Part shown: piece by piece, positions 38,830 to 48,659 of the stretch | Numbering within the stretch: the first letter of the stretch is position 1 | How the letters are laid out: every line of letters starts with the position of its first letter | Assembly (NCBI GenBank): GCA_902826215.1 | Contig: CADEDY010000006.1 | Span: 1-64,000 of the forward strand | DNA length: 64,000 bases | Reading direction: 5' to 3' | Source: an uncultured Bacteroidota bacterium | GTDB taxonomy: Bacteria > Bacteroidota > Bacteroidia > Flavobacteriales_F > PHOS-HE28 | The notes under the pieces: generated by a model | Told to the model about the DNA's origin: nothing | The model's input: only the letters and a program-made list of their open reading frames with translations | Database searches by the model: none | Position numbers and translations under genes: made by a program

Positions 38830-39248
38830 TTCTGTCGGCCACCACCGCATGAAGGCGACGTTCTCGTAGCGTATCCCCTTGTAAGATCCGCCACTTGTGC
38901 TTCGTTCCGTTGTACTCAAGACCTTCCTGAGTTTCTGTGTGCAAGTCCGTTGCCTTTTGCCGGTCTGATAATTGCATTGGGCATTCAGTTCACTTGCGTA
39001 TACGGGGGCGGACATGAATTGCCGAGTTCCATGCGCCACCGGTTGGTTGATCACATGATGCGGAGGAGGATCGATGATACGACGCAGGCCTTTGGATATG
39101 TCTATTCAAACATGCTCGCGCACGTCGCGGATCCGTTGGTGCATAATTCGGCCAGAACTTATACTATTGGACCCTTGTGTATCTGTTGCAGAGCCTATCT
39201 CCCAATATTCGCTCTGTTCAATTCCGTCGTTCAACAACACTGCAAAAC
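38830..39248. other. 419-bp gap without a convincing gene
   Basis: No frame here has a good start and recognisable protein. Frames on the minus strand run through but have no family character. A TACTATTG box (7 of 8 matches to TAnnTTTG) lies at about 39162, 80 bases before the next start, and might be the promoter of the arylsulfotransferase. Nothing else stands out. Confidence 0.4.
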
Positions 39249-40928
39249 ATGTCAAGGATCCTTTCCGTTCTGACCGTTCTCTTGGTATCTACTCTTTCCC
39301 AGGCCCAGCAGACCACCGGCCTATTCCAATTCGATCCGGGAACGGACGACGGGTACATTCTTTGGGGAGCCATGTTCGGCCACGATCAATACCTGATGAA
39401 CACCTGTGGTGAAGTGGTGCACACATGGGCAGGCGATGGAGTGAGTTTGGGGAATGCCATGTATCTGTTGGAAGATGGGACCTTACTGCGATGTGCGAAA
39501 GCCGACACTGCGATCAGTTCGCCTATTGACGCAGGAGGAGGAGGGGAGCGCTTACAGAAGGTGGACTGGAGCGGGAACGTGACCTGGGACTTCATCTACT
39601 ATGATGCTGAGAAACGGTTGCATCACGATATCGAACCGATGCCGAATGGGAATATCCTCGCGATAGTCTGGGTCATCAAGGACGAAGCGAGCTGTATCCA
39701 AGCTGGTAGGGTTCCGACAGACCTACCCCAAGGCAGACTTTTTGATGAGCGGATCATAGAGATCGAACCGACCGGACCTAATACAGGGAACATCGTCTGG
39801 CAGTGGGACCTTTGGGATCATTTGGTTCAGGAGGTGGACGATACCAAGGACAACTTCGGCACGGTGGCGGAACATCCCGAGTTGTTGGACATCAATTGGC
39901 TGAATCAGGCCATTGGTATTCCCGGCCAGGCTGACTGGATCCACTTGAACGCAGTGGACTACAATGCGGAACTGGATCAGATCGTCTTGAGTTCGCAGAT
40001 CATGAGCGAAGTATGGATCATTGACCATGGCACAACTACCGAAGAGGCTGCTGGACACAGTGGCGGAACCTACGGCAAGGGAGGTGACTTTCTGTACCGC
40101 TACGGGAATCCTCAGGTCTACGACCGTGGCACCGCCACGGATCAGGTGCTCTGGCGCCAGCATAATGCCGGTTGGATCCCTACGGGCTTTCCGGATGGCG
40201 GCGGGATAATGATATTCAACAACGGACTGGACAGGCCCATCGGATTCTCGGAGATCGATGTCATCGATCCGCCCCAGAGCGCTACTGGTGTTTATGGGAC
40301 ATTGGCACCCGGAGAAGTCTTCGGACCAAATTCAAAGTCTTGGAACTACCATGCTCAGGATTCCGTGAGCTTCTACTCGTATTTCATTTCCGGCGCACAG
40401 CGGTCCGCGACGGGCAACACGCTGATCTGCGCGGGTGAGAAGGGGCGCATCTTCGAGGTGACCCACACGGGTGAGGTCGTCTGGGACTACGTGAACCCGG
40501 TTACGCACCTTGGGGTCCTCAGTTCAACCGACCCCATACCGTTCTCAGGCGGTGGCGCCTTTCAGGGAAACCTCGTTTTCCGAGCTGAAAAATACCCTGC
40601 TGATTTTCCCGGGTTCAATGGGCATGACCTGAGTTCCGGTGTCCCGTTGGAGGCGGATCCGTTCGTTGATTGCTTGGTCTTGTCGTTGGATCCTGTTGCA
40701 GATGAAGATGTGCGCGTTTATCCCAATCCAGCCCACGGTTCGGTCGTCGTCAAGGGTTTGGGTCAAGCATATATGAGCTTGTTCGATCCAACCGGTAGGT
40801 TAGTGTCCAGCCAAAGGATCCATTCGGATCAGGAACATCTCGATCTTTCCGGACTAACTCCAGGTGTGTATGTGGTGCGCTTCGAACGCGATGGGAAATT
40901 GAAGTCGGAAGTGCTGGTGGTGTACTAA
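39249..40928 (+). CDS. Secreted arylsulfotransferase-like protein with T9SS type A tail
   Basis: About 559 residues starting MSRILSVLTVLLVSTLSQAQ (signal peptide), which sets the start at 39249. The propeller-like body matches aryl-sulfate sulfotransferases: EVVHTWAG, NAMYLLEDGTLLRC, WDFIYYDAEKRLHHDIEPMPNGNIL, HLNAVDYNAELDQIVLSSQI and EVWIIDHGTTTEEA (with the His residues conserved in such enzymes). Sulfate is moved from one phenolic ester to another without PAPS. The last 75 residues form a sorting tail (VRVYPNPAHGSVVVKGLG ... GVYVVRFERDG). Exported by T9SS. Confidence 0.9.
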   Translation: MSRILSVLTVLLVSTLSQAQQTTGLFQFDPGTDDGYILWGAMFGHDQYLMNTCGEVVHTWAGDGVSLGNAMYLLEDGTLLRCAKADTAISSPIDAGGGGERLQKVDWSGNVTWDFIYYDAEKRLHHDIEPMPNGNILAIVWVIKDEASCIQAGRVPTDLPQGRLFDERIIEIEPTGPNTGNIVWQWDLWDHLVQEVDDTKDNFGTVAEHPELLDINWLNQAIGIPGQADWIHLNAVDYNAELDQIVLSSQIMSEVWIIDHGTTTEEAAGHSGGTYGKGGDFLYRYGNPQVYDRGTATDQVLWRQHNAGWIPTGFPDGGGIMIFNNGLDRPIGFSEIDVIDPPQSATGVYGTLAPGEVFGPNSKSWNYHAQDSVSFYSYFISGAQRSATGNTLICAGEKGRIFEVTHTGEVVWDYVNPVTHLGVLSSTDPIPFSGGGAFQGNLVFRAEKYPADFPGFNGHDLSSGVPLEADPFVDCLVLSLDPVADEDVRVYPNPAHGSVVVKGLGQAYMSLFDPTGRLVSSQRIHSDQEHLDLSGLTPGVYVVRFERDGKLKSEVLVVY

Positions 40929-41129
40929 GGGCCCGGGTCTATTCGGATAGATAGGAATGGGACTCCGGTCGCAGCTGGCCCAGAAGGTGTGCTTGTGGAA
41001 CTGAAGCCCGCCTGGCGGAGTCCTTCATCCATGAACTTGGGCCACGGTGACACCTGCATTTTCATGTTCCTACCGGTCTTGCGTTCGGTCACTTGAAGGT
41101 GGCTTGTGTGTTGATCTTTTGTTGCGCAC

Positions 41130-41160
41130 TTGTATTTAACCGAATGGTTTAATACGTTTG
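41130..41160 (+). promoter_or_regulatory. Promoter of the ArsR/SRPBCC operon
   Basis: TTG (41130-41132) then exactly 20 bases then TACGTTTG (41153-41160), a full match to the Bacteroidota -33/-7 pattern. The ATG of arsR is 17 bases downstream. Confidence 0.75.
41134..41153 (+). promoter_or_regulatory. Probable ArsR operator, near-palindrome
   Basis: ATTTAACC (41134-41141), GAAT (41142-41145), GGTTTAAT (41146-41153): an inverted repeat with a single mismatched position in each arm. AACC-N4-GGTT sites of this type are known from autoregulating ArsR proteins that head SRPBCC gene clusters. It fills the space between the -33 and -7 boxes, so bound repressor would block RNA polymerase. Confidence 0.75.
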
Positions 41161-41176
41161 TCCGGTCGAACTCATC

Positions 41177-41548
41177 ATGGATCACCTGAGCACAACGTTC
41201 CAAGCCCTTGCGGACCCCACACGTCGTGCTATCCTTGCGCGACTGTCCAACGGTGCAGCGACGGTGAATGAGTTGGCGGCGCCCTTCAGCATGAGCCTGC
41301 CAGCGATCAGCAAGCACTTGAAAGTGCTGGAACGCGCGCAGTTGATCAGCAGGGGCAAAGAGGCGCAATGGCGACCATGTGAGTTGAAAGCCGCTCCGTT
41401 GAAAGAGGCCAACGCATGGACGGAGCAGTATCGCCAATTCTGGGAGGCTCGTTTCGATCGCCTGGATGCCTACTTGCAGGAACTTCAGTCCAACGAGAAA
41501 GTTGTTGCACCACCAAAGAGGAAGACCAATGCCCGCAACAAGAAGTAA
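41177..41548 (+). CDS. ArsR-family winged-helix transcriptional repressor
   Basis: 123 residues. The winged-helix core is LADPTRRAILARLSNGAATV (helix 1-2), ELAAPFSMSLPAISKHLKVLERA (recognition helix region) and LISRGKEAQWRPCELKAAPL (wing). Metal-binding CxC motifs of the arsenic and cadmium sensors are absent, so the signal is probably an organic ligand or none. This is the subgroup that is commonly paired with SRPBCC genes. It heads a fifteen-gene array and its own promoter overlaps a palindromic site, so it should repress itself and everything downstream. Its last 20 bases overlap the first SRPBCC gene. Confidence 0.92.
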   Translation: MDHLSTTFQALADPTRRAILARLSNGAATVNELAAPFSMSLPAISKHLKVLERAQLISRGKEAQWRPCELKAAPLKEANAWTEQYRQFWEARFDRLDAYLQELQSNEKVVAPPKRKTNARNKK

Positions 41549-42029
41549 AGAGGATGCATCCACGGTAGACCGGGAGATCATCATATCCCGTGTGATCAGT
41601 GCGCCGCGAGAATTGGTGTGGAAGGCGTGTACTGATCGGAAGCACGTGGATGCATGGTGGGGCCCCAATGGCTTCAGGAACGAGACCTTCCACATGGAGG
41701 TGAAGCCCGGTGGCATGTGGCGCTACATCATGCATGGGCCAAGCGGAATGAAGTTCCCGAACCGCGTGAAATACGTTGAAGTGCATGCGCCGGAACGGCT
41801 TGTGTACGAGCATGGGGAGGACGTCGACAACGATCCGATGCGCTTCGATGTGACGGTGGTCTTCATCGATCGGAACGGATCCACCGAGGTCATCATGCAC
41901 AGCATCTTCCCGACGATGGTGCAGCGCAACTTGGTAGTGGAGCAGTACGGCGCGATCGAAGGGGGTAAACAAACGCTGGCGCGACTGGACGATTTCTTGA
42001 CGAACCCGCACAACCCCATAGAACTATGA
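41529..42029 (+). CDS. SRPBCC/AHSA1 domain protein, copy 1
   Basis: 166 residues, single domain with the family pattern EIIISRVISAPRELVWKACT, then AWWGPNGFRNETFHMEVKPG, then MHGPSGMKFPNRVKYVEV. The fold is a deep hydrophobic ligand cavity between a beta sheet and a long C-terminal helix (TLARLDDFL). Some members bind small hydrophobic molecules, some activate Hsp90 (AHSA1). Copies 1, 5 and 7 share WWGP(N/K)GF and MHGP and look most alike. It starts at the ATG at 41529 inside the arsR gene and overlaps the next gene by four bases. Confidence 0.88.
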   Translation: MPATRSKEDASTVDREIIISRVISAPRELVWKACTDRKHVDAWWGPNGFRNETFHMEVKPGGMWRYIMHGPSGMKFPNRVKYVEVHAPERLVYEHGEDVDNDPMRFDVTVVFIDRNGSTEVIMHSIFPTMVQRNLVVEQYGAIEGGKQTLARLDDFLTNPHNPIEL

Positions 42030-42523
42030 ACAAGGCCAATAGCTTCAACTTCATCGTTGACAAGTACGCTGCAACGATCACTTTCGAGCGCTCCTTCAAC
42101 GCCCGTCTCGCTCAGGTTTGGTCCGCTTGGACCGATCCGGAGATCCTCTGCCAATGGTGGGCCCCCAAACCTTACGAATGTGTGATCAAGTCGCTGGACT
42201 TCCGAGAGGGCGGCCGATGGCTCTACTGTATGCAGGGGCCGAAAGGAGACCGGCATTGGTGCTACTTCGACTATGAGACGATCAAGCCGAAGTCGTATTT
42301 CTCCGGAAGTGATGCATTCTGTGATGATAACGGAGTGGTGAACGACATCAAACCAAAGGTGAAATGGGAAGCGAACTTCAGGGAAGCTGTAGATCACACG
42401 ACGGTAATTGTGGTCATGCACTTCGATTCACCAGCAGATCTGGATAAGATCGTGGCGATGGGCTTCAAGGAAGGCATGACCCAAGGTCTCGGTCAGCTGG
42501 AGGAGTTGCTCAAAGCCCTTTGA
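42026..42523 (+). CDS. SRPBCC/AHSA1 domain protein, copy 2
   Basis: 165 residues. TITFERSFNARLAQVWSAWT and QWWAPKPYECVIKSLDFREG show the family, then a longer middle part GDRHWCYFDYETIKPKSYFS that is not in the other copies, and a final helix QGLGQLEELLKAL. The WWAP replaces WWGP. Its ATG overlaps the stop of copy 1 (ATGA), so they are coupled. Confidence 0.88.
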   Translation: MNKANSFNFIVDKYAATITFERSFNARLAQVWSAWTDPEILCQWWAPKPYECVIKSLDFREGGRWLYCMQGPKGDRHWCYFDYETIKPKSYFSGSDAFCDDNGVVNDIKPKVKWEANFREAVDHTTVIVVMHFDSPADLDKIVAMGFKEGMTQGLGQLEELLKAL

Positions 42524-42553
42524 CCGTAAACGTGATCAACTTTCCTGAACACC

Positions 42554-42979
42554 ATGAGCACAGCAGCACGCATCTCCGTCTCAGCGCTGGTCAACAAGCC
42601 CGTAGCTGACGTTTGGCATACCTGGACCGACCCCGAACACATCACGCAGTGGAACGCTGCCAACGATGACTGGCATTGCCCGAAGGCGAGCAACGACCTG
42701 CGCGTGGGAGGCAAGTTCAGCAGCACCATGGCCGCTCGCGACGGCAGCTTCAGCTTCGACTTCGAAGGCATCTACGACGATGTACAAGTGAACGAGCGGA
42801 TCTCGTACACCTTGGCGGATGGTCGCAGCTGCGAGGTCCTGTTCTCACCGGAAGACGGAGGCACGCGTGTGGTCGAGACCTTCGATGCGGAGACCGAGAA
42901 CAGCGAGGAGATGCAGCGTGGAGGTTGGCAGGCCATCCTTGATCGGTTCAAGGCACACGCTGAACGCATTAAGCAATGA
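42554..42979 (+). CDS. SRPBCC domain protein, copy 3
   Basis: 141 residues. The family pattern is VNKPVADVWHTWTDPEHITQ followed by WNAANDDWHCPKASNDLRVGG, where the usual WWGP is replaced by WNAANDDW; this sub-type often occurs next to AHSA1 genes. The C-terminal helix is MQRGGWQAILDRFKAHAERI. It begins 30 bases after copy 2 and overlaps copy 4 by four bases. Confidence 0.88.
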   Translation: MSTAARISVSALVNKPVADVWHTWTDPEHITQWNAANDDWHCPKASNDLRVGGKFSSTMAARDGSFSFDFEGIYDDVQVNERISYTLADGRSCEVLFSPEDGGTRVVETFDAETENSEEMQRGGWQAILDRFKAHAERIKQ

Positions 42980-43455
42980 GCAACAAAGTGACCGTCGGTC
43001 CGAAGGGCGAGCGCTCTATCCTGATCACACGTTCCTTCAATGCGCCGCCCGGGCTGGTCTTCGATGCGATGAGCATGCCGGAGATGATGAAGCAATGGTT
43101 CCATGGCCCGCCGGGCTGGACGCTTGCCGTGTGCAAGATCGATCTGCGCGTTGGTGGCACCTATCGCTGGGTGTGGCGCAACGATGCCGGTGACGAGATG
43201 GCCATGGGCGGCGAGTACAAGCAAGTTCTGCGCCCGGAACGCATCGTTAGCACAGAACTTTTCGATGATGCATGGTATCCTGGCGAAGCGCTGGTGACCA
43301 TCGAATTCACGAAGGTGAACAACACGACCGTGATGTACATGACCGTGCAATACGAATCCACCGCCGCGCGCGATGGTGTGCTTGCTGGTCCGATGGCCAG
43401 TGGTGTAGAAGCGAGCTACGCACAGTTGGACGAATTCCTACAAGCGAACCAATAG
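42976..43455 (+). CDS. SRPBCC/AHSA1 domain protein, copy 4
   Basis: 159 residues. ILITRSFNAPPGLVFDAMSM, KQWFHGPPGWTLAVCKIDLR and VGGTYRWVWRNDAGDEMAMG give the family, with WFHGPPGW in place of WWGP. The C-terminal helix is ASYAQLDEFLQANQ. It starts inside the stop of copy 3 (ATGA) and lies three bases before the DUF1801 gene. Confidence 0.88.
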   Translation: MSNKVTVGPKGERSILITRSFNAPPGLVFDAMSMPEMMKQWFHGPPGWTLAVCKIDLRVGGTYRWVWRNDAGDEMAMGGEYKQVLRPERIVSTELFDDAWYPGEALVTIEFTKVNNTTVMYMTVQYESTAARDGVLAGPMASGVEASYAQLDEFLQANQ

Positions 43456-43458
43456 ACC

Positions 43459-43848
43459 ATGTCGAACGCGCTCGACATGGCTGTCACAGCATTGCTCGAT
43501 GCCAACAAGCATCCGCTCCGAGAGGAGATCGATGCCCTGCGCATGATCATCCTCGATGCAGATGGAAGCATCGAAGAAGGCGTGAAATGGAACGCCGCAA
43601 GCTTCCGTACCACCGAGTGGTTCGCCACGCTGAACGGTCCGAAGCAGGTGAAGGAGGCGATGATCATCCTACACGCCGGTGCGAAGGTGAAGGGCGCCGA
43701 TCTGAAAGGTCGGATCACCGATCCCACAGGAATGATCAAGTGGTTGGGAGCCGATCGGGGCATGATCACTTTCCCTTCCCGGGCCGACATCAAGGTCAAA
43801 CAGGCAGACCTGAAGACACTGATCCAGGCATGGATCCAACATATCTGA
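43459..43848 (+). CDS. DUF1801 protein, copy 1
   Basis: 129 residues. The DUF1801 pattern is PLREEIDALRMIILDADGSI, EEGVKWNAASFRTTEWFATL and KEAMIILHAGAKVKG. Relatives such as the YdhG family share the same fold as iron-chaperone-like proteins, but this subgroup has no proven function. It is common in clusters with SRPBCC genes. It starts three bases after copy 4 and ends 30 bases before copy 5. Confidence 0.82.
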   Translation: MSNALDMAVTALLDANKHPLREEIDALRMIILDADGSIEEGVKWNAASFRTTEWFATLNGPKQVKEAMIILHAGAKVKGADLKGRITDPTGMIKWLGADRGMITFPSRADIKVKQADLKTLIQAWIQHI

Positions 43849-43878
43849 TCTTCACAACGCCTCACATTCGACCCTCAA

Positions 43879-44346
43879 ATGGAAACGATCGATACGACGA
43901 ACAGGGAGATGCGGATCACTCGTAGGATGAAGGCTCCGATCGAACTGGTGTGGAAGGTCTGGACCGATCCCGAACACATCGTTCACTGGTGGGGGCCGAA
44001 CGGGTTCACCTCCACGATCCACGAAATGGACTTCAAGGAAGGCGGCGAATGGAAGCTGACCATGCACGGTCCGGATGGAACGAACTATCCGAACCGTAGT
44101 GTTTACAAGGAGATCGTCCCACTCAAGAAGATCATCTTCGAGCACTTCAATCCGCATTTCTTCACCACGGTCCTCTTTGAAAGCCAAGACGGAGAGACCA
44201 TCATCGACTGGTCCATGCTCTTCGATACCGTGGAGATGCGCGATATTGTGGTCAAGGCACACAAAGCGGACAAAGGACAGAAGGAGAACGTCGAGAAGCT
44301 CGAGAAGTATCTCGCTGAACTGCCTGATCGGTCAAGGCCTGAATAG
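43879..44346 (+). CDS. SRPBCC/AHSA1 domain protein, copy 5
   Basis: 155 residues. MRITRRMKAPIELVWKVWTD, HWWGPNGFTSTIHEMDFKEG and MHGPDGTNYPNRSVYKEI make it a close relative of copies 1 and 7. The C-terminal helix is NVEKLEKYLAELPDRSRPE. It starts 30 bases after the DUF1801 gene. Confidence 0.88.
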   Translation: METIDTTNREMRITRRMKAPIELVWKVWTDPEHIVHWWGPNGFTSTIHEMDFKEGGEWKLTMHGPDGTNYPNRSVYKEIVPLKKIIFEHFNPHFFTTVLFESQDGETIIDWSMLFDTVEMRDIVVKAHKADKGQKENVEKLEKYLAELPDRSRPE

Positions 44347-44387
44347 AACAATAAGTACGCATTACCAAGACGATCCACTGCGAACCC

Positions 44388-44855
44388 ATGAACACGAAAC
44401 CTTCCATAGTCGAAACAAAAGAGCAACCCACCGCCGTGATCCACTTACTGATCCCTGGTCGCGATATGCCGAAGTACATGGACCCTGCGATCCAAGAGAT
44501 CCTGAAGACGCTTGCTGATCAAGGCATGGAACCAACCGGGCCGATGTTCTCTTACCATCATCGCCGTCCGTCGGATACGTTCGATTTCGAGATCGGATTT
44601 CCTATTGCGAAGGCGATCAAGCCATCCGGACGGGTGGTGAACGGCACATTGCCCGCGGAGAAAGTGGTTCGCTCTGTCTACCAAGGTCCCTACGAGGCGT
44701 TGGGGGAAGCATGGTTGGAATTGCAAGCCTGGGTTCGTGAGCAGAAGGTTCCGGAGAGCGGACGCTTTTGGGAGCGATACCTGACGAACCCGAATGACGT
44801 GAGGGATGACAAGGACCATCGGACCGAGTTGAATTGGGTGCTGGGCGAGAATTGA
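44388..44855 (+). CDS. GyrI-like small-molecule-binding protein
   Basis: 155 residues with one GyrI-like (AraC effector-binding) domain: AVIHLLIPGRDMPKYMDPAI, GPMFSYHHRRPSDTFDFEIG and SVYQGPYEALGEAWLELQAW. The fold is shared by multidrug-responsive regulators and by stand-alone ligand-binding proteins, and some members hydrolyse cyclic compounds. No DNA-binding part is present. It ends three bases before the AlkD gene, so they are co-transcribed. Confidence 0.87.
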   Translation: MNTKPSIVETKEQPTAVIHLLIPGRDMPKYMDPAIQEILKTLADQGMEPTGPMFSYHHRRPSDTFDFEIGFPIAKAIKPSGRVVNGTLPAEKVVRSVYQGPYEALGEAWLELQAWVREQKVPESGRFWERYLTNPNDVRDDKDHRTELNWVLGEN

Positions 44856-44858
44856 GCA

Positions 44859-45587
44859 ATGGCGAAGAAGGCTGCCCATGGTATTGTGAAGATCCCATCC
44901 CGACGCAAGGCCGGGGTTACCGAACGGATCAAGATCCGCAGTACGAAAGTGAATGCCGTGTTGGAAGAACTGCAGCGCATGAGCAACCCGAAAGTGCGAG
45001 CGGAAATGGAAAGGCGCTATGGCATCGTCACGGACAACGCGTATGGCGTGATGATGCGCGATATGCAGAAGTTAGCCAAGTCGATCGGGGTCGATCACGC
45101 CTTCGCCCAAGCACTTTGGGAGACCGGTTGGTACGAGGCTAGGATGGTGGCCTGCATGATCGCTGATCCGGGCAAGGTCACCGCGGCGCAGATGGATGCC
45201 TGGTGCAAGGACTTCGACAATTGGGGTATTTGCGATACCGTCTGTTTCAAGCTATGGGATCAGGTGCAACATGCGATTGGACGGGTCGCGGTGTGGGCGA
45301 AGAGCGAGGATGAATTCGTGAAGCGGGCGGCCTTCGCGCTACTCGCCTGTCTGGCGCTGCACAACAAGGACATTCACCGAAAGGTCTTCATCAAGCATCT
45401 TGCGTTGATCGAGCGTGCGGCGAAGGATGATCGCAACTTCGTGAAGAAGGGTGTGAGCTGGGCCTTGCGTGGGATCGGTGGTCACGATCCGGAATGCCGC
45501 GATGCAGCAATGCAGTGGCGCAACGCCTTGCTGCGTCAAAGGATCCAGGACAGCGACGGGTGGGAAAGGATGTATTGCGGGACCTGA
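44859..45587 (+). CDS. DNA alkylation repair protein (AlkD-type HEAT-repeat glycosylase)
   Basis: 242 residues, all helical as expected of HEAT-like repeats. The AlkD signature is present as DNWGICDTVCFKLW (Trp and Asp positions of the active site), KRAAFALLACLALHNKD (the Arg) and FVKKGVSWALRGIG (the second Trp). AlkD removes N3- and N7-alkyl purines without base flipping. Its presence inside an array of ligand-binding SRPBCC and GyrI proteins suggests that the inducing chemical may be, or may yield, an alkylating compound, although this is only inference. It begins three bases after the GyrI gene. Confidence 0.9.
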   Translation: MAKKAAHGIVKIPSRRKAGVTERIKIRSTKVNAVLEELQRMSNPKVRAEMERRYGIVTDNAYGVMMRDMQKLAKSIGVDHAFAQALWETGWYEARMVACMIADPGKVTAAQMDAWCKDFDNWGICDTVCFKLWDQVQHAIGRVAVWAKSEDEFVKRAAFALLACLALHNKDIHRKVFIKHLALIERAAKDDRNFVKKGVSWALRGIGGHDPECRDAAMQWRNALLRQRIQDSDGWERMYCGT

Positions 45588-45644
45588 AACGACCACTGGC
45601 GATCCGACGTTCCTCATCCAAAGCGAAGAAGAACAATTGATACC

Positions 45645-46238
45645 ATGAGCAAACGACTCACATCTCTTCCGGAAGATCACCAGCCTCTATCCTTTGAGAG
45701 TGCGCGAGCGTGGGATACTTGGCTGGCGAAGTACGGAGCATCTTCAAAGGGCGTGTTCCTCCTGATCGGGAAGAAGAACAGCGGCGAGCGCTTGATCAGC
45801 ATCGAGGATGCATTGGAAGTGGCCCTGTGCCACGGCTGGATCGATGCCATCCGCAAAGGCAATAATGCCACGACCTTCTTGCAGCGCTACACACCACGCG
45901 GTCCTAGAAGCATCTGGAGCGAGATCAACAAGAAGAAGGTGCAGCAACTGATCAGGGCCAAACTCATGCTGCCAGCCGGGCTGGCGGCCGTGGAACAGGC
46001 CAAATGGAATGGACAATGGGATAGGGCCTATGCGCCTGCAAGCACGATCACCGTGCCACCTGACCTAGAGTCAGCACTGAAGAAGAACAAGAAAGCGCGC
46101 ACTTTCTTCGAAACGTTGAAAGGCAGTAACCGTTACGCGATCCTTCATCGTTTGCACACGGCCAAGAGGGAGGAGACCCGTGCCAAGCGACTCGCGCTCT
46201 TCATCGGTATGCTGGAACGCGGGGAAACCTTCCACTGA
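45645..46238 (+). CDS. YdeI/OmdA-family protein
   Basis: 197 residues. ALCHGWIDAIRKGNNATTFL, RYTPRGPRSIWSEINKKKV and the C-terminal YAILHRLHTAKREETRAKRL match the YdeI/OmdA (bacteriocin-protection) family. Members have been linked to resistance to cell-envelope toxins, but the biochemical activity is unknown. It begins 57 bases after the AlkD gene; the gap has no terminator, so it is probably still in the operon. Confidence 0.85.
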   Translation: MSKRLTSLPEDHQPLSFESARAWDTWLAKYGASSKGVFLLIGKKNSGERLISIEDALEVALCHGWIDAIRKGNNATTFLQRYTPRGPRSIWSEINKKKVQQLIRAKLMLPAGLAAVEQAKWNGQWDRAYAPASTITVPPDLESALKKNKKARTFFETLKGSNRYAILHRLHTAKREETRAKRLALFIGMLERGETFH

Positions 46239-46269
46239 CCTTTCGCATCAATAGCCTATCCATTGGACC

Positions 46270-46707
46270 ATGAACCCCAAAGTGAAGAACACGGACGACT
46301 ACTTAAATGCACTTCCGTTGGACCAAGCCGCGGCCTTGCAGAAACTACGGAAGCAGATCATCGCGGCTGCGTCAGGATGCGAGGGGTACTTTGGATATGG
46401 CCTTCCGGGGTTCAAGTTGCACGGACATCCGTTGCTGTACATGGGCGCCGCGAAGAACCACTGTGCGCTTTACGGCATGATCCCGAAAGGCTTTGAGGAG
46501 GCTTTGGTCGATTTCAAACGAAGCAAGGGCGCAATACAATTCACACCGAAGAAGCCGATACCTGCGGCGCTTGTGAAGGCGATCGTGAAGGCGAAGGTCG
46601 TTGAGTTGGAAGCGAGGTGGGCTGCGGAGATCGTCAAAAAGGGAGACGAGAATGCGCCTTTAAAGACAGCGAAGAACGTCACGAAAACACCGGATCGAAC
46701 CAACTGA
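46270..46707 (+). CDS. DUF1801 protein, copy 2 (YdhG-like)
   Basis: 145 residues. YLNALPLDQAAALQKLRKQI, YFGYGLPGFKLHGHPLLYMG and IPKGFEEALVDFKRSKGAI fit DUF1801/YdhG proteins, which resemble the frataxin-like iron chaperones. It is only distantly like copy 1 at 43459. The C-terminus is a basic unstructured tail (KTAKNVTKTPDRTN). It begins 31 bases after the YdeI gene and ends ten before copy 6. Confidence 0.85.
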   Translation: MNPKVKNTDDYLNALPLDQAAALQKLRKQIIAAASGCEGYFGYGLPGFKLHGHPLLYMGAAKNHCALYGMIPKGFEEALVDFKRSKGAIQFTPKKPIPAALVKAIVKAKVVELEARWAAEIVKKGDENAPLKTAKNVTKTPDRTN

Positions 46708-46717
46708 ACCACCGATC

Positions 46718-47251
46718 ATGATCACTTATTTCCTCCTTGGCATCGCAGCCATTTTCGTGCTGATGCTGATCATTGCAGCAACAATGCCGAACACCGTCCG
46801 GTATGAACGTAGCGCCATCATCGCGGCACCACCTGCTAGGATCTTACCTCACATTGCCGACTTCCACAATTGGAAACCTTGGTCGCCATGGGAGAAAATG
46901 GACCCCAGCATGAAGCGTGACTACAGCGGTGCGGCGAGCGGTAAGGGCGCGAAGTACGGGTGGGCCAGTGCGGGCAAAGCGGGAAAGGGTTCCATGGAGA
47001 TCCTGGAAGCCACGGACCGCGGTGTTCATGTCGATCTGCAATTCGTGAAGCCCTTCAGGAATGCGTGTGACACATGGTTCAAGTTCGAACCCGAGGGAAG
47101 CAACACGCGCGTGGTTTGGACGATGACAGGTCCGAATCTGTTCATCGGAAAGGTGATGGGTCTCTTCATCAACATGGACAAGATGATCGGAAAGGACTTC
47201 GAGAGCGGTTTGGCAGAACTGAAGACGACGGTGGAGAAAGGAACTGTCTGA
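46718..47251 (+). CDS. SRPBCC (polyketide cyclase type) protein with N-terminal membrane anchor, copy 6
   Basis: 177 residues. A single N-terminal membrane helix (MITYFLLGIAAIFVLMLIIA) leads to a polyketide-cyclase/dehydratase type SRPBCC domain: SAIIAAPPARILPHIADFHN, WKPWSPWEKMDPSMKRDYSG and GLAELKTTVEKGTV. The anchor should place the ligand-binding domain on the periplasmic or cytosolic face of the inner membrane. It differs in type from the AHSA1-like copies. Confidence 0.87.
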   Translation: MITYFLLGIAAIFVLMLIIAATMPNTVRYERSAIIAAPPARILPHIADFHNWKPWSPWEKMDPSMKRDYSGAASGKGAKYGWASAGKAGKGSMEILEATDRGVHVDLQFVKPFRNACDTWFKFEPEGSNTRVVWTMTGPNLFIGKVMGLFINMDKMIGKDFESGLAELKTTVEKGTV

Positions 47252-47263
47252 TAGGTCATTGAT

Positions 47264-47716
47264 ATGGACGAAGCGACAATGTTCCGTGATCGTGAGATCC
47301 TCACCACCCGGTTGCTCAAGGCTCCGCGTGAAGTGATCTTCCGTGCACTCACGGATCCTGAGGTCCTTCAGCGTTGGTGGGGACCGAAAGGCTTCACGAA
47401 TACCTTCCACACCTTCGATCCGAAGCCCGAAGGCCAATGGGAATTCACCATGCACGGGCCGAAGGGACAGGATTTCCACAACACCTGCGTGTTCCGCAGG
47501 ATCGAAGCGCCGAGCTACTTGGAGTTCGACCACCTGAAGGAGATGCACTACTACAAGGCCGTTTTCACCTTGACCGAAGCGGCAGTAGGCACCCATCTCG
47601 AGTGGACGATGCGTTTCAATTCCGCAGACGAATTGGATCCGATCCGCCCGTTCATTGTGGCGGCGAACCAAGAGAACCTGGATAAGCTTGAAATTGAACT
47701 GGACCGACTTTATTGA
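47264..47716 (+). CDS. SRPBCC/AHSA1 domain protein, copy 7
   Basis: 150 residues. ILTTRLLKAPREVIFRALTD, RWWGPKGFTNTFHTFDPKPE and MHGPKGQDFHNTCVFRRIE make it a close relative of copies 1 and 5. It ends with a helix NLDKLEIELDRLY. It begins 12 bases after copy 6 and ends 17 before the DoxX gene. Confidence 0.88.
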   Translation: MDEATMFRDREILTTRLLKAPREVIFRALTDPEVLQRWWGPKGFTNTFHTFDPKPEGQWEFTMHGPKGQDFHNTCVFRRIEAPSYLEFDHLKEMHYYKAVFTLTEAAVGTHLEWTMRFNSADELDPIRPFIVAANQENLDKLEIELDRLY

Positions 47717-47733
47717 ACCAACGACCACCAACT

Positions 47734-48114
47734 ATGAAACGCATCAACATCGCCTACTGGATCATTACCGCGCTCTTCAGTGCCTTCATGATCTTCAGCA
47801 GCGTCGGCGGCATCATGCTGCATCCTGACGCTGTGACCATGCTCCACGAGCACTTGGGCTACCCCAATTACTTCATCCAATGGCTCTCGGTCATCAAGGT
47901 GATCGGTGCTATAGCCATCCTTCTTCCGTTCGTACCTGCACGGGTGAAAGAGTGGGCCTACTTCGGATTCTTCATGGACCTCGCCACGGGCATGTATTCC
48001 TTCATCGCGGTAGGTGATCCTGTGGCCGGTTGGGCGCCCATGACCTTGTTCATAGCCGTGCTGGTGGTTGCGTATGTGCTCCATCACAAGCGCTCTGGGG
48101 GTGTCGTGGCTTGA
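47734..48114 (+). CDS. DoxX-like membrane protein
   Basis: About 126 residues with four membrane helices (IAYWIITALFSAFMIFSSVG, FIQWLSVIKVIGAIAILLPF, EWAYFGFFMDLATGMYSF, MTLFIAVLVVAYVLHH). The HLGYPNYFIQWLSVIKVIGA segment is typical of DoxX/DoxD-like small quinone-linked membrane proteins, often found beside SRPBCC and ArsR genes. Start at the ATG at 47734; a TTG at 47713 is in frame but less likely. Function unclear; oxidative stress has been suggested for relatives. Confidence 0.87.
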   Translation: MKRINIAYWIITALFSAFMIFSSVGGIMLHPDAVTMLHEHLGYPNYFIQWLSVIKVIGAIAILLPFVPARVKEWAYFGFFMDLATGMYSFIAVGDPVAGWAPMTLFIAVLVVAYVLHHKRSGGVVA

Positions 48115-48170
48115 GCCGGGGCTGTTTCAGTTGTACCTCAGGTGCGAGCCGTGGATAATTTCGTCGCTCC

Positions 48171-48659
48171 ATGGCAACCAGCACGGCCCTCCGAAACCAA
48201 GTGTCCACTCCAGCAGTGGACGAGATCCGGATATCCCGCATTTTCAGCGCACCACGTGACCTCGTCTTTCAGGCTTGGACACGGCCTGAAATGTTGCTGC
48301 ACTGGTTCGGTTGTGCAGCCTTCACCACTACGCATGCCGAGGCGGATGTTCGCGTGGGTGGCTTTTGGCGCGTGATCATGCTATCGCCGGAAGGCGAGGA
48401 GTTCCCGGCCTACGGAACCTATTTGGAAGTGCGTGCTCCGGAACGCTTGAAGCTGACGCATCATTGGGAAAAGCTGGTCGCTGGGGTGAACCCTGCTGAT
48501 CATACGACCACCGTCACCGTTGACCTTTTCGAAGTGGAAGGAGGGACCCGCATGGAATTCCGTCAGACGGGATTGGCCACCGAAGCCTCGCGTGATTCAC
48601 ACATCGGCGGCTGGTGCGATTCGTTCGATAAATTGGGATCAGGCCTCGAAGGACAATGA
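48171..48659 (+). CDS. SRPBCC/AHSA1 domain protein, copy 8
   Basis: 162 residues, last gene of the array. EIRISRIFSAPRDLVFQAWT, LHWFGCAAFTTTHAEADVRV and LKLTHHWEKLVAGVNPADHT; the WWGP motif becomes WFGC. GGWCDSFDKLGSGLEGQ is the final helix. It begins 56 bases after the DoxX gene and converges with the TonB receptor gene 34 bases later. No intrinsic terminator is evident in that gap. Confidence 0.88.
   Translation: MATSTALRNQVSTPAVDEIRISRIFSAPRDLVFQAWTRPEMLLHWFGCAAFTTTHAEADVRVGGFWRVIMLSPEGEEFPAYGTYLEVRAPERLKLTHHWEKLVAGVNPADHTTTVTVDLFEVEGGTRMEFRQTGLATEASRDSHIGGWCDSFDKLGSGLEGQ

Follow-up and report, generated by a model that had tools for sequence, protein, structure and literature searches.

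The window, a stretch of 64,000 nucleotides from an uncultured Bacteroidota bacterium, carries on its forward strand a gene for a 123-aa ArsR-type winged-helix protein, a putative repressor (arsR, 41177-41548). The ArsR fold is clear from the sequence: the helix-turn-helix models HTH_20 (PF12840) and HTH_5 (PF01022) both match above the gathering score, NF033788 gives 82.5 bits against a cut-off of 55, and the nearest solved structure is 3f6o (E 1.8e-25). Judged by its cysteine sites, the protein has the fold of a regulator, while a role as metalloregulator is not supported, as C68 is the sole cysteine and the paired-cysteine metal motif of the classical ArsR/SmtB sensors is absent. Exactly one cysteine is present in 117 of 121 ArsR orthologues, and the C68 column is occupied by cysteine in 98%. 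This residue (codon 41378-41380) sits in an RPC motif that almost every orthologue retains, whatever its phylum, and is a candidate for a thiol switch or for a contact between the monomers of a dimer.

The end of arsR is overlapped by the first structural gene, an AHSA1/SRPBCC gene on the same strand (41529-42029; PF08327, E 3.3e-25), so that an SRPBCC-type gene directly follows the regulator in the same direction, as in the Rv2034 operon. The forward-strand genes behind it (42026-48659) comprise six more AHSA1 genes together with Polyketide_cyc2, two DUF1801, GyrI-like, DNA alkylation repair, OmdA and DoxX-like genes; strand and spacing suggest that they are possibly co-transcribed and that the operon may reach to 48659. 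Ten AHSA1 matches exist in the genome, seven of them in 41529-48659 and an eighth after a second ArsR gene, and AHSA1 frames follow arsR in most of the loci compared. Directly upstream, also on the forward strand, lies a gene for an arylsulfotransferase-like protein that ends in a Por secretion C-terminal sorting domain (39177-40928).

What is placed in front of arsR? The first-pass annotation had described a TTG, a spacer of 20 nt and the box TACGTTTG, and the bases and coordinates of both elements are exact (41130-41132 and 41153-41160, forward strand). The near-palindrome ATTTAACC-GAAT-GGTTTAAT that it placed between them is likewise located correctly at 41134-41153, but it stays symmetric for two more bases in either direction. 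The candidate operator is thus a 24-bp palindrome, GTATTTAACC-GAAT-GGTTTAATAC, at 41132-41155 of the forward strand, with 9 of 10 arm pairs matched, and at this length it takes in the G of the TTG as well as the first bases, TAC, of the -7 box instead of lying strictly between the two elements. Arms of 8 bp or longer separated by 4 bp are therefore present at the regulator's own promoter, with 21 nt between the end of the palindrome and the arsR ATG. The symmetry is of limited weight in itself: of Markov sequences matching the 248-nt gap, 0.7% contain a palindrome with 9/10 pairs and a 4-nt spacer, or 3.6% if any spacer of 0-8 is allowed, and palindromes of equal quality with a 4-nt spacer occur six times in the 64 kb and are hence not rare. 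The strong evidence for the site is phylogenetic, and does not lie in palindrome quality alone.

The promoters of the Bacteroidota primary sigma factor combine TTTG at -33 with TAnnTTTG at -7 (PMC7366714, PMC9723704). We find both a TAnnTTTG box and a TTG about 20 nt upstream of it at this locus, each conserved in relatives, and the combination TTG-N19-21-TAnnTTTG occurs once in the window with both strands counted, appearing by chance in 0.7% of Markov copies of the 248-nt gap of the same length and composition. Within the final 60 nt of 165 upstream regions of the same genome, TAnnTTTG is found 17 times in sense and 2 times in antisense orientation, against 2 and 1 for its reversed control, and TATAAT is absent from these same 60-nt segments; TAnnTTTG is a genuine start-proximal signal in this genome. 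The description of the promoter as ‘textbook’ is consequently apt for the -7 box, but not for the two-box pattern, since TTTG-N18-21-TAnnTTTG is not enriched genome-wide over the reversed control (15 vs 12). The TTG element is for this reason weaker evidence than the -7 box, and the promoter call rests on the latter together with conservation. A sigma-70 reading of the promoter was tested and dropped.

In flavobacteria the TAnnTTTG box spans -12 to -5 (PMC9723704), which would set +1 at 41165 on the forward strand and leave a leader of 12 nt; the earlier prediction of a start near 41166 is accordingly refined to about 41165. In four loci of the comparison (L026, L032, L039 and L041) the sequence upstream of arsR reads TTTG-CGCC-ATG, and with the usual distance from box to start the message would begin at the ATG and be leaderless.

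The predicted start also bears on the alternative that the palindrome acts as RNA, either as a hairpin or terminator of the arylsulfotransferase-like gene or as an element of the arsR leader. RNA would be able to form the stem, yet its folding is no better than that of shuffled sequences (z -0.51), the palindrome is not followed by a T-run, and the sole terminator-like match lies elsewhere, at 41087-41104; the terminator and hairpin readings were dropped on these grounds. The palindrome, moreover, stands upstream of the predicted start, and loci from other phyla employ the half-site twice, 16 bp apart, an arrangement suited to dimers bound to DNA. We regard a role in RNA as extremely unlikely.

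A DNA-binding site within a promoter, by comparison, is what the conservation of the region argues for. Within a sample of 45 genomes from the order, 37, all of one genus, gave a match at the cut-off used, although two of these (G019 and G028) have only a weaker, paralogue-type match; 28 non-redundant upstream regions of genus members formed the footprint set. Conservation across these rises at 41130, is strongest through 41160 and falls thereafter. At the left edge T is found in 26/28 at 41130 and again in 26/28 at 41131; the -33 element reads TTG in 21/28 and TT[GA] in 23/28, with the remaining five sequences lacking TT[GA] at the exact position. Inside the palindrome, TA at 41133-41134, AAC and GGT are each invariant (28/28), and AACY-N4-GGTT is matched in 27/28. 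The TA and the last G of the -7 box are kept in all 28 as well, and 25/28 conform to TAnnTTTG as a whole. The conserved letters are therefore symmetric inside and asymmetric in the flanks, with TTG on the left only and TTTG on the right only, which is the pattern expected of an operator inside a promoter.

The layout is uniform among the 36 genus loci, some of which represent one genome taken from two collections: each has one site, and the spacer is 20 nt long in all but two, where it measures 21 nt. Six loci (L020, L022, L024 and L034-L036) have a leader 22-34 nt longer, and there the unit TTG-operator-TAnnTTTG is shifted as a whole. The arrangement, its conservation and its linkage to the ArsR-AHSA1 operon are matters of observation.

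Evidence that does not depend on the window comes from a matrix built on 73 sites that precede ArsR orthologues in organisms other than the genus (L045-L119), drawn from Pseudomonadota, Cyanobacteriota, Acidobacteriota, Chloroflexota and others, with one Bacteroidota record among them. The half-site it yields is TATTTAACC. The site in the window scores 29.6 bits and ranks first in the 64 kb, with the next best place at 2.6 bits, though the matrix is not wholly blind because the alignment step sought TATTTAACC-like sites. The genome scale was covered by pattern searches and by 400 kb of sampled stretches, in which the highest score, 16.8 bits, falls on the site preceding the second ArsR gene. 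Only two sites in the 4.16-Mb genome come within one mismatch of ATTNAACC-N4-GGTTNAAT, and they precede the two related ArsR genes, each of which is then followed by an AHSA1 gene; sites with two mismatches mostly appear to be coding or to lie ahead of unrelated genes. The second site, ATTCAACC-N4-GGTTGAAT (C1:431960-431979), is itself situated within the spacer of a TTA-N20-TATATTTG arrangement. On contig C10, a TetR-like reading frame begins near ATTACACCATCCGGTTTAACCAAATGGTTAATATT (L152 1500-1535; G000:C10:105850-105878), which contains two overlapping AACC/GGTT-like sites resembling the ArsR operator.

These further sites raise the question of whether the palindrome, while regulatory, might be read mainly by the second ArsR (C1:432011) or by a TetR-type regulator that recognises an AACC-N4-GGTT-like site, with the local ArsR acting elsewhere. 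The close similarity of the paralogue site and the occurrence of AACCAAATGGTTAA near the start of the TetR-like frame make cross-talk possible. Against another main reader, the same half-site accompanies orthologues of this particular ArsR across many phyla, and many site-bearing members of the genus have no paralogue match, so we consider it very unlikely. In the literature searched we found no described operator for this ArsR orthologue group, nor binding, footprint or start-site data for any of its members.

How does the same half-site come to serve in such different genomes? Of the 75 loci outside the genus, 63 carry a pair of sites, spaced 16 bp apart in 61 cases. TTGAC is found upstream in 70 of the 75, and its commonest distance to the first AACC is 28 nt; if the promoter spacer measures 17 nt, TATTTA in the left arm would serve as the -10 hexamer. 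The orthologues in other Bacteroidota also have the double site (10/11), several of them with TTG-N20-TATTTTAC, so that their -7-like box coincides with the left arm. One locus of family f91 (L130) has instead a single site within TTG-N20-TAAGTTGC, and its box fits the TAnnTTGY type described as SM5 (PMC9723704). A distant ArsR subfamily in the same class of bacteria, with 44-53% identity, has GTAACC-type palindromes within TTG-N18-22-TATATTTG/TATGTTTG; the spacer layout TTG-N18-21-TATATTTG is present in 4 of 7 loci, and two more lack a clean TTG. Considered along with L130, these layouts suggest that placement in the spacer arose more than once. In the protein tree the sequences of the genus group as a single clade (99/88), separate from the orthologues of other Bacteroidota. 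These belong to families f90 and f91, which also stand apart, f91 beside betaproteobacterial sequences; the tree is built on 108 columns, too short to prove transfer.

We lean towards the interpretation that the half-site TATTTAACC has been kept across phyla while the operator layout was rebuilt to suit the polymerase of the host. Hosts with TTGAC would then carry two operators 16 bp apart, extending from the -10 region in the direction of the start codon, and this genus one operator inside the spacer between -33 and -7, an arrangement reached separately, in similar form, by the other ArsR subfamily. If true, this would be a natural experiment on operators following promoter type, possibly after gene transfer, and a clean comparative case of one repressor site fitted to two promoter types.

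For the locus itself, the first-pass proposal of an operator within the promoter is borne out at the level of sequence by the footprint in the 28 genus relatives and by the matrix from outside the genus, and further by the same layout at the second ArsR-AHSA1 operon and by the distant subfamily with its palindrome in the spacer. We consider it highly probable that the arsR-AHSA1 operon is subject to steric autorepression through this operator. A dimer of the 123-aa ArsR would sit on 41132-41155, with one monomer on each AACC/GGTT half-site. As the palindrome takes up the whole 20-nt spacer and reaches into both the TTG and the TA of TACGTTTG, dimer and polymerase would be mutually exclusive; bound, the repressor would keep out RNA polymerase carrying the primary sigma factor and shut off the start near 41165, silencing arsR itself and the AHSA1/SRPBCC cluster of stress-type genes behind it until a signal, probably non-metal, released it. 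Dimer binding, the start site, the direction of regulation and the inducer are what we infer from the arrangement. ArsR proteins can also activate, as Rv2034 does at other promoters (PMC3338718), which counts against this scheme.

A variant of this scheme retains ArsR binding but lets the AHSA1 partner, and not a small molecule, modulate repression, so that the operon would work as a titration or toxin-antitoxin-like module. ArsR-COG3832 pairs are indeed among the candidate toxin-antitoxin-like modules of PMC2701414, where antibiotic resistance is nevertheless judged the likelier function, and the recurrence of AHSA1 frames after arsR would agree with such a partnership. That one ArsR heads seven AHSA1 genes and other enzymes is, on the other hand, unlike a two-gene module, and we think this variant unlikely. 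The consensus TATTTAACC-N4-GGTTWAATA gives a precise definition of the putative operator for a very widespread group of ArsR-AHSA1 regulators, and the sequence could serve as a tightly controlled promoter part in Bacteroidota.

The class of switch is already known; the contribution here is the sharp definition of the operator and the contrast in layout between promoter types. With the promoters of the Bacteroidota primary sigma factor the locus shares the TTG, the 20 nt and TACGTTTG, with the start predicted about 5 nt past the box, and differs from them in a spacer that is a putative operator and not merely A+T-rich. As for ArsR-COG3832 (AHSA1) pairs, Makarova et al. 2009 (PMC2701414), in the portion considered, present them as a recurrent module without metal motifs and give no operator. 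An ArsR without a metal motif beside AHSA1 genes with lineage-specific expansions is common to both, although two-gene modules are described there and a single ArsR stands before a seven-AHSA1 cluster here. Rv2034 of Mycobacterium tuberculosis is an autorepressor footprinted on CCGTAAGT-N4-ACTTACGG; its operon, Rv2034-Rv2036, includes a Polyketide_cyc2 protein, seven metals were without effect, and its sole cysteine is needed for dimer formation and repression (PMC3338718). Our locus resembles it in the SRPBCC-type neighbour, in an 8-N4-8 palindrome at the regulator's own promoter, in the single cysteine of each protein and in the lack of a metal response, for which the counterpart here, from sequence alone, is the lack of a recognisable metal site. 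The differences lie in the half-site, CCGTAAGT in Rv2034, in a footprint at about -30 to +8 in the numbering of that paper, in the absence of a Bacteroidota promoter from the mycobacterial system, and in the activation of other genes by Rv2034.
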